DNA of 64,000 nucleotides from Haliclona indistincta (taxonomy: Eukaryota > Porifera > Demospongiae > Haplosclerida > Chalinidae): assembly GCA_964017065.1 (NCBI GenBank), contig OZ024787.1:4971538-5035537 (forward strand). Reading direction: 5' to 3'. The notes beneath the pieces are model-generated. The model had not been told where the DNA came from. It ran no database searches and was given only the letters and a program-made list of their open reading frames with translations. Each line of letters starts with the position of its first letter. Position 1 is the stretch's first letter. Below, in pieces: positions 15,590 through 17,748 of the stretch. The translations under genes and the position numbers were made by a program.

Positions 15590-17748
15590 TCCATTGATAC
15601 AGTCCTTATGATGGTTTGGATGGTCATTGGATGGTCTTTCTCTTGTAGCTAATTCCATCATTTTTCTCTCCTCGCCTATAGTTTTGTTCTACGAACGAAA
15701 TGTTTGACTATTATAGTTATGTAAGTACCTCACTGAGCAGCTGCCTAACTTCCATCATCTGCATTTCGGTTTTAAGATTTGCCTGATATCACACAAAGAC
15801 ATCAGTGAACTGCATCAAGTTAAACAAAACATACCTGGTCAAGCTTATGAATTTCGCTCTCCAGCCTTTTCTTTTCTTCCATGTGTTCTTTCTCAAGAGA
15901 CAGCTAATGCAAGTAGCCAAATCATGATGAATGCATCCTATTAAAGCTAGTACTACACCTTTAAAAGCTTCTGTTCGCACAGCATCTTTTGCATTTCTCT
16001 TTCAAATTTTCTTCTCTCTTCCTCGAGTTCGCTCTCAAGAGATGACTTTTCTTTATGCACTTCACTCATTTTGACCTCCAGTTGCTTCATTTCCTGCTCT
16101 TTCTGCACCAGTTGTGCACCCATCTCAGCCACTTGTTCATTCTGAGCTTTAATCTTTCTCTCAAGCTTATCAATCTGATTGCTGAGCTCAGTTACAGATT
16201 CTTCGGCGTCTTTGATCATCTGTTGAAGTTGAACTAGATCCTCTCCAGTCTTTGATTTTCTTAGTTTAACAAACCAGCGTTTTGACAGTTCTTTCTTCTC
16301 TCTCTTCTTAATGAGGCTCTCTTTTTCTTGTCTTAGTTTGTCAATCTGTCCCTTCACTGACTCCAATGATGCCTTTGTTTGCTCAAATGATTGTGTGACT
16401 TTTCTTCTTTATTCTTCAGTTTTCTCAACTGTTCACCGACAGTGAAGTTCTCCCTGTCTATAGCAGCAACCTTGTCTCTTTGCTTTGCAATTGCAGTGAG
16501 GCATTCTGTTGGCCCAAACTCCTGGTTTTTATGTAATAGCAAATAATTAATACCTTTATGTCTCTGCTTACCGTTAAACTTTGCGCTACAAGATGTGCGA
16601 AGGCTTTGATAAATTCTATAGTTGTATCATGTTGAGTTGCTTCTTGAGGCTATATATTATGCCAAAATTTTATAGTGCTTAAAATGTGAAATACACATGT
16701 AAATATTATTACTTACTTCAACTAGTTTTGATTCAATAGTGACTAAAGATGCTCCTGTAAATATTTGGATAATGAATACTCAGGTCATAAACATCACAGT
16801 TCTCACCATACTTGACTGCTATTTTCTTAGCTAGCATAGTCATTCCAGCTGATCTCAGGGCCTGTACCAGAGCTGCTGGTGATGCATCAGTCCCTCTCAG
16901 CCAGGTAGCCAACATCTCTCTCAGACACTCCATGCTTTGATTACTACGACCACTAGTATCATTTCTAATGACTTCTAGTTGAAAAGGTGCTATCTTGAGA
17001 AAAATGCCCACTGTAAACCAGTTTGCAGCCACCTCTGTCAATTGTCCAAGTATCTCTCGAAGATCATCGGTACCTGAACAGAAGCAAGTTATTTATTTTT
17101 TAAATGGCCATTCTTACTAAAAGTTTCAATTTTAGTCTCTTCAATGTCATCAGCATTGTCATGAGCAATGTTAAATGCTCTGAACTCAAACAGAGCACTC
17201 TCTCTAATGAGAGAGAAGCACTCCCGGTAGTTAGTAGTTGTGACTTCTCTGGATACAGGATTCTTCTTCTCAGCCTTGCCCATGATCAGATGTAGCTTGA
17301 TATTAACCTCCTCAATTTCATGTTCTGACCCAAATAAATTTCTTTCTAATTGACTTCGCAGTCGAGACTGGATTACTCCTGCATGTGTGCTTAGTAGACT
17401 AGTCTTATTGACATGAACAATAAATTTACCGTCAGAGATAAATTTACAGAATCTCTCAAGAGCTCTCTCATCAGTGAAGTCCACTTCAACCAGAGGCAGG
17501 CTAGCTCCTTGTCTCACTCTGGCTACATTGTGTACCCCTAGCACTGGACAAACTGCACTCAGTGATTCCTTCAGGTACTCTGTAGTGAAGGTGATGCCTC
17601 TGTATCGCAGCACTGGTGCCCGGCTACTGCTGGGAGTCTCCATCCTCAGCTGATGGTTGCCATCTACTCTGATACTCACAGACAGAGCTAGGAAGCTCTC
17701 ATAGTACGTGGTGTAGATGTTGAGATGGTTCTTGCCACCGGTAGCCAT
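15590..17748 (-). CDS. Death-domain and coiled-coil protein, 5' part of a putative fusion with PLC copy A
   Basis: Exons: 17118-17748 (ATG at 17748; an open frame continues upstream to 17823 without ATG), 16807-17073, 16717-16754, 16572-16649, 15959-16521, 15835-15903, 15729-15782 and 15590-15688. The first exon (about 210 residues) belongs to no family I recognise. The second encodes a death domain: hydrophobic helices around LREILGQLTEVAANWF, LKIAPFQLEVIRND, MLATWLRGTDASP and LVQALRSAGMTMLAKKIA. The next exons are Lys/Glu-rich coiled coil. Death domains assemble innate-immunity and apoptosis signalling complexes. The last exon starts as coiled coil and ends [12 protein letters not shown], which is the end of the PLC PH domain, in frame and with the same donor as PLC copy B. 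A possible 1-base deletion lies in a T4 run at 16,400-16,403: the frame ends just after it, and the coiled coil resumes in another frame. Confidence 0.7.

Follow-up and report, generated by a model that had tools for sequence, protein, structure and literature searches.

A candidate TRADD-like platform carrying look-alikes of host proteins in the sponge Haliclona indistincta, and an apparent DNA-level chimera with phospholipase C

Can a single sponge gene join a death domain to a phospholipase C (PLC)? The question is raised by a run of minus-strand exons in a 64,000-nucleotide (nt) stretch of the Haliclona indistincta genome (C5:4,971,538-5,035,537, here called the window; positions below are window positions unless prefixed C2, C5, C7 or C8). 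A preliminary description proposed that these exons encode a protein of the order death domain - coiled coil - EF - X - Y - C2, without a PH domain, which would link a death-fold assembly to hydrolysis of phosphatidylinositol 4,5-bisphosphate (PIP2). On its minus strand the window holds a complete-looking PLC gene (copy B, ~36.3-20.7 kb), then the death-domain exons, then a second PLC without the PH part (copy A, to ~7.9 kb). PLC delta1 is the best solved-structure relative of the window PLC, and its closest named relatives in a database search come from the sponges Ephydatia and Dysidea. The source genome is 144 Mb in size, and death-domain matches were scored for 150 of 1,372 first-look candidates. 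We find that the proposed order exists and is intact in a sister gene outside the window, that the window's own copy is frameshifted, and that both belong to a family of loci in which one N-terminal module precedes tails of several kinds.

Results

The fusion in the window is interrupted by a one-base loss

Copy A (all features on the minus strand) begins with exon 1a (17,430-17,748), which carries the start ATG and the first part of a TRADD-N-like N-terminal domain (the N domain). A 51-nt intron follows (17,379-17,429), which happens to be in frame in copy A (its counterpart in the sister gene, copy C, is 52 nt) and is clear in paralogues; it had been hidden within the first of the eight exons described at the outset, so that the module has nine exons, all with GT-AG borders as listed. 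Exon 1b (17,118-17,378) holds the second part of the N domain, and exon 2 (16,807-17,073) holds the death domain, identified by Pfam and by fold; its Pfam Death score in copy A is 21.4 bits, under the 22.6 cut-off, while paralogues reach 32.1 bits. Exons 3 (16,717-16,754) and 4 (16,572-16,649) lead to the coiled-coil exons 5 (15,959-16,521), 6 (15,835-15,903) and 7 (15,729-15,782) and to a hybrid exon (15,590-15,688).

The phases of the exon borders are compatible, as had been claimed, and borders are GT-AG throughout the module and PLC exons, but the frame is broken inside exon 5. This exon is four bases shorter in copy A (563 nt) than in copy C (567 nt); three of these are an in-frame difference and one base has been lost from an A-run at 16,402-16,399, and the copy A frame from the ATG therefore ends within the coiled coil. 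The coiled-coil exon is present at 20 loci (21 matches, copy A being split in two); internal stops occur in copy A alone, and the other 19 loci are stop-free across the matched part. By inspection, we found no phase-compatible intron of plausible length that would splice around the frameshift. Thus, copy A as assembled does not encode the whole fusion, and owing to the frameshift it is probably not expressed as a full fusion now.

A sister gene carries the fusion intact

Copy C lies on the same strand ~20 kb below the window, from C5:4,951,888 to at least 4,947,336. Its death-domain part is a 95% copy of the window's and likewise runs on into PLC, in the order N domain - death domain - coiled coil - EF - X - Y - C2. 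The 20 modelled exons give 1,122 stop-free codons, with the remaining C2 exons read by eye; a supposed frameshift in exon 1 was rejected, as the extra base sits in the short intron evident in paralogues. A single unbroken exon of 249 nt runs from the coiled coil into the first EF-hand helix, and no PH remnant was seen; this shared exon argues for fusion more strongly than the junction in the window does. The X and Y domains score well above the Pfam cut-offs (140.1 and 123.5 bits), and the X-Y linker is missing. Copy C very probably encodes a real death domain - coiled coil - PLC protein.

Aligned to PLC delta1, copy C keeps only two of six checked active-site residues (delta1 numbering); Asn312, Asp343, His356 and Glu390 are lost. 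Its PLC part compared with that of copy B gives a synonymous divergence (dS) of 0.73, a nonsynonymous divergence (dN) of 0.16 and a ratio (omega) of 0.22 over 526 codons, and this ratio implies that the PLC part has been held under constraint. Copy C is probably catalytically dead. The proposed link to PIP2 hydrolysis is therefore unlikely for the only intact gene, given the loss of four of the six residues.

In contrast, copy A keeps all six (His311, Asn312, Glu341, Asp343, His356 and Glu390), as do copy B and six relatives (two from Dysidea, two labelled Em and probably from Ephydatia, and two others). The PLC exons of copy A (17 modelled plus the last three) stay open as far as the stop, their indels relative to copy B across the 17 exons compared are in frame only, omega between the two is 0.215, and the X and Y domains score 175.3 and 129.8 bits, well above the cut-offs. 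A two-residue insertion adjoins the copy A active site.

Copy A appears to have been joined at the DNA level

The hybrid exon, 99 nt long and of phase 0 at both ends, had been described as part coiled coil and part PH domain, and comparison with both presumptive parents bears this out. Its first part matches a coiled-coil exon of copy C; at ~15,630 this is joined to a segment that matches the end of the last PH-region exon of copy B (31,676-31,749, minus strand, 74 nt), which is the source type for this end. The likeness to copy B covers 30 bases at 96.7% identity and adjoins ~10 kb of duplicated sequence, so the shared segment is more than chance. The hybrid exon carries Cys at the position of a copy B Trp.

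More broadly, homology in the window is of copy C type from 17,769 down to 15,632 and of copy B type from 15,629, and a few bases at the join cannot be assigned clearly to either parent. In self-comparison, the duplicated block on the copy A side (5,139-15,629, minus strand) matches 17,971-31,715, with identities of 87-93% for the four largest blocks and 77-86% for smaller blocks. Both parents are broken inside exons and introns are retained, which duplication within a tandem array would explain. The join and the homologies indicate that copy A is a DNA-level chimera of the 5' part of a TRADD-like gene and the 3' part of a neighbouring PLC, which such a tandem-array duplication would have fused. 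An origin from a stand-alone death-domain gene downstream was rejected, since the sister gene itself continues into PLC.

Synonymous divergence is alike on the two sides of the join (dS 0.041-0.082 for three module pieces, A vs C; 0.106 for the PLC, A vs B; p 0.16). Intron identity differs, at 95.1% for A and C (411 sites) vs 90.2% for A and B (1,780 sites; p 0.001), with 5 of 16 introns left out of the A/B comparison as repeat-rich. This inequality of the introns makes it likely that gene conversion followed the join, or that copy A arose in more than one event.

Two further traces lie in this array. Between copies A and C, at ~C5:4,954,400-4,954,700 (L010), lies the stray 3' end of a PLC that closely resembles the tail of copy C, apparently a trace of another lost copy; and a palindromic element at 18,037-18,446 has several relatives in flanking loci.

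One module precedes tails of five kinds

The domain order had been presented as new, but that claim was drawn too narrowly, as the same module also precedes actin, SH2-kinase, SAM and PDZ tails. Among the 20 loci with the coiled-coil exon we recognised a tail at 11: PLC at two (copies A and C), actin at four (L042, L043, L044 and L045), FES-like SH2 plus tyrosine kinase at three (L047, L048 and L049), SAM domains at one (L040) and PDZ domains at one (L052 with L062). In-frame splice models were built by hand for L045, L049 and L040, the PDZ case was read by eye, copies A and C were modelled as above, and for the remaining loci the assignment draws on open frames and Pfam. The tail exons of L045 (actin) and L049 (SH2) continue in phase from the coiled coil and contain no Met ahead of the domain from which translation could start. 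Among solved structures, beta-actin is the best relative of the L045 tail (E 2.8e-136) and FES kinase the best relative of the L049 tail (E 5.9e-62). The tails at all 11 loci are recognisable as copies of other host proteins. No PI-PLC-X match was found near other module loci, so that PLC tails were seen at copies A and C only.

No tail was recognised at nine loci; at seven of them (L041, L046, L050, L051, L053, L054 and L055) mostly ~1.5 kb past the exon was inspected. At L054 (C5:6,266,576-6,270,094, minus strand) the last coiled-coil exon is followed by a 255-residue open frame without a Pfam match. L057 and L058 (C2:16.28-16.30M) are more distant coiled-coil paralogues; a possible degenerate RhoGEF tail was seen in L057 only, at an E of 0.015 too weak to count, and no tail match was found at L058.

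Fused actins and kinases have lost catalytic residues

We examined catalytic residues of the actin and kinase tails. All four fused actins have lost Gln137, Asp154 and His161 and keep Asp157, whereas the full set of four is present in three of the four stand-alone actins of the window. These stand-alone genes lie on both strands at 47,000-55,700, close to the PLC genes, and the fourth (48,757-49,713) is diverged at the nucleotide-site residues. All three fused kinases have HCD for HRD, S for N and GFG for DFG, with the Asp of HRD kept. Among recent duplicates, omega is 0.79-1.23 for actin tails vs 0.38-0.43 for their modules and 1.05-3.42 for SH2 tails vs 0.23-0.32 for theirs, with only one of eight tests below 0.05; for PLC tails no comparable difference is evident.

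The N domain appears similar to TRADD-N in fold

In its fold the N domain seems to be like TRADD-N, without a match in sequence-level searches, and the death domain follows it, as in TRADD. The TRADD-N profile PF13820 found no match in the genome, in a search in which no positive control gave a signal; a search of PDB with an N domain profile gave no TRADD match at E<=10; and Foldseek returned nothing at E<=0.001. The combination suggests a TRADD-like architecture in a sponge. In the pieces of copies A and C scanned at E<=0.001, only Death, PI-PLC-X and PI-PLC-Y were found, with no NTPase domain (NB-ARC/NACHT) and no RING.

Database searches returned no protein of the same composition. According to a precomputed column, PI-PLC-X is present in all 61 matches to a copy C query and a death domain in none, and nine of the 61 were rescanned; a search among long proteins with the N-terminal part of copy C gave none at E<=0.001; and a 379-residue query had seven matches, one being the window's own sequence and the other six ENA proteins 215-364 residues long. 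Among the open-licence PMC articles listed, none reports a death-domain-PLC or death-domain-actin fusion in its title or the opening of its abstract.

Other features of the window and its surroundings

The PLC part of copy A (minus strand) comprises EF-hand region exons within 13,884-15,465 (15,465-15,392, 14,785-14,662, 14,490-14,386, 14,284-14,192 and 14,035-13,884), exons for the end of the EF region and the X domain within 12,280-13,778 (13,778-13,721, 13,107-12,954, 12,786-12,698 and 12,522-12,280), the X-Y linker exons that copy C lacks (11,503-12,090), exons for the Y domain and first C2 region within 9,901-11,004 (11,004-10,854, 10,515-10,381, 10,315-10,137 and 10,014-9,901), and the last three C2-region exons within 7,876-8,826 (8,826-8,752, 8,679-8,583, and 8,234 to a stop near 7,876).

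Copy B, the parental PLC (20,704-36,264, minus strand, outer borders approximate), has EF, X, Y and C2 plus two N-terminal PH-like stretches. Its model consists of 17 exons at 31,558-26,536, all open, with the N-terminal part taken from open reading frames. The PH-like stretches score under the Pfam cut-offs (PH_12 19.6 bits, PH 15.5 bits), and some relatives score above them with PH. A long-terminal-repeat (LTR) retroelement at 21,794-26,118 lies within a copy B intron on the opposite strand, with terminal repeats of 147 bp at 98.6% identity and a 1,329-residue open frame that is gypsy-like by eye. A tandem repeat array containing 200 N occupies 38,200-41,240. Elsewhere, C8:11,891,801-12,242,767 (spanned by L001, L002, L004, L005, L007 and L008) is dense in death-domain matches of a different family, many of them inside single open frames of ~870-1,190 residues.

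Discussion

We favour, with some reservation, the reading that these loci form a TRADD-like platform carrying look-alikes of host proteins, perhaps as baits (integrated decoys), with copy A as a DNA-level chimera within the family. Each fusion would be made from one transcript. Its death domain and coiled coil would bring together a signalling complex in the manner of TRADD and FADD, and the tail would serve as a bait or tether that no longer needs enzyme activity and, by analogy with plant nucleotide-binding leucine-rich-repeat receptors (NLRs), detects or binds the factors that target the genuine PLC, actin or FES kinase. A fresh capture like copy A would at first retain a complete active site, which may decay later, as seems to have happened in copy C; copy A looks like one of the newest joins in the family, although a one-base shift has already disrupted it. 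The idea that the tails act as decoys for microbial attack is tentative, at somewhat less than even probability. Equally speculative is the fuller picture of a sponge integrated-decoy immune system on a TRADD-like platform, with at least three kinds of dead host protein (PLC, actin and FES-like kinase) and the window as the birth of a new decoy before enzyme decay. One observation weighs against a history in which fusion caused the decay of the tails: a FES-like SH2-kinase exon without the module in view (L065, C7:9,185,433-9,185,942) keeps HRD and N, yet has GFG for DFG. A different role for the same tails, as pseudo-enzyme scaffolds or dominant-negative regulators of host PLC, actin or FES pathways without pathogen sensing, is a possibility that we hold at somewhat less than even. 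It would account for domains that remain recognisable after losing catalytic residues and for the constraint on the PLC tail, and SAM and PDZ are common scaffold domains; tail turnover among paralogues and the faster change of actin and SH2 tails fit conflict better, though weakly.

What copy A itself amounts to is a separate matter, and there is close to an even chance that it is a functionless chimeric pseudogene, a by-product of tandem duplication. The frameshift points that way, as does its setting in an array with repeated palindromic elements and the stray PLC 3' end. Against this, the other modelled exons are open and the PLC indels are in frame, and omega against copy B suggests that constraint probably acted for much of the life of copy A; in any case copy C and the other fusions would be unaffected. 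We regard it as improbable that copy A makes an active fusion, and no more probable that the window gene is a death-domain-scaffolded PLC that hydrolyses PIP2 on assembly, with the frameshift as an assembly error or a single allele. Such an enzyme would suit the open PLC part, its complete active site, its low omega and its spliceable borders, but the lost base stops the frame in the coiled coil, a two-residue insertion stands beside the active site, and the hybrid exon has replaced the Trp of copy B; a general assembly error also seems unlikely because the 19 other coiled-coil matches are stop-free and the 17 exons of copy B are open. Very improbable is the alternative that a coiled-coil gene merely ends where an independent PLC, actin or kinase gene begins. 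The PLC part of copy A could indeed start from a downstream Met; this account is contradicted by the copy C exon that holds coiled coil and EF-hand helix together, by the in-phase tail exons of L045 and L049 without a start Met, and by the same arrangement repeated with five kinds of tail.

The platform reading has close relatives in known systems. In integrated-decoy plant NLRs and in primate TRIMCyp, an assembly module is combined with a captured copy of a host protein, and the integrated decoy is a key concept in plant immunity. The present family would be alike in this respect if the decoy reading is right, without an NTPase or RING in the pieces scanned. Compared with the vertebrate adaptor TRADD, which has TRADD-N and then a death domain, the family adds a long coiled coil and a captured tail. 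With PI-PLC delta-type enzymes, including demosponge PLCs, the PLC fusions share X and Y, their PH-like part being replaced by the module. A death receptor that recruits a PLC is described for the CD95-PLCgamma1 complex; according to the available text, CD95 does so non-covalently, through a CID segment outside its death domain that binds the PLC SH3 domain (PMC4961226), whereas the present case is a fusion.

The nearest precedent is in another sponge. In the available text of Kaur, Iyer, Burroughs and Aravind 2021 (PMC8195603), 357 NCOA6-clade TRADD-N proteins are reported in Amphimedon, mostly built of a Death-like plus TRADD-N unit with varied tails that include Tyr kinase, SH2 and PDZ, and immune roles are proposed for them. 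The family described here is like these expansions in its constant N-terminal unit and its varied C-terminal domains among paralogues (five tail kinds, 11 of 20 loci). The general theme of variable tails on sponge Death-like/TRADD-N units is thus already published (PMC8195603), and the present family is a variation on it. It differs in order, with the N domain first, then the death domain, then the coiled coil, whereas Death-like precedes TRADD-N in the Amphimedon majority; its PLC, actin and SAM tails are not named for the Amphimedon expansions in the text available (PMC8195603). Also unlike that account, active sites have been lost here, and the birth of one fusion is traced to a join made in DNA. 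The same article proposes a retrotransposon-borne fusion for the DEDD2 clade; the introns kept in copy A argue instead for joining at the level of DNA.

The array thus offers a worked example of how a fusion may be born without retrotransposition. A TRADD-like architecture in a sponge would be of interest in itself, as the classic TRADD clade is described, in the available text, as confined to vertebrates (PMC8195603). The pattern is open to direct test: all actin and kinase tails examined have lost catalytic residues, and of the two PLC tails the fresh one retains its active site and the older does not. If the decoy reading is true, animals would have integrated decoys on a death-fold platform, and the same solution as in plants would have arisen twice.
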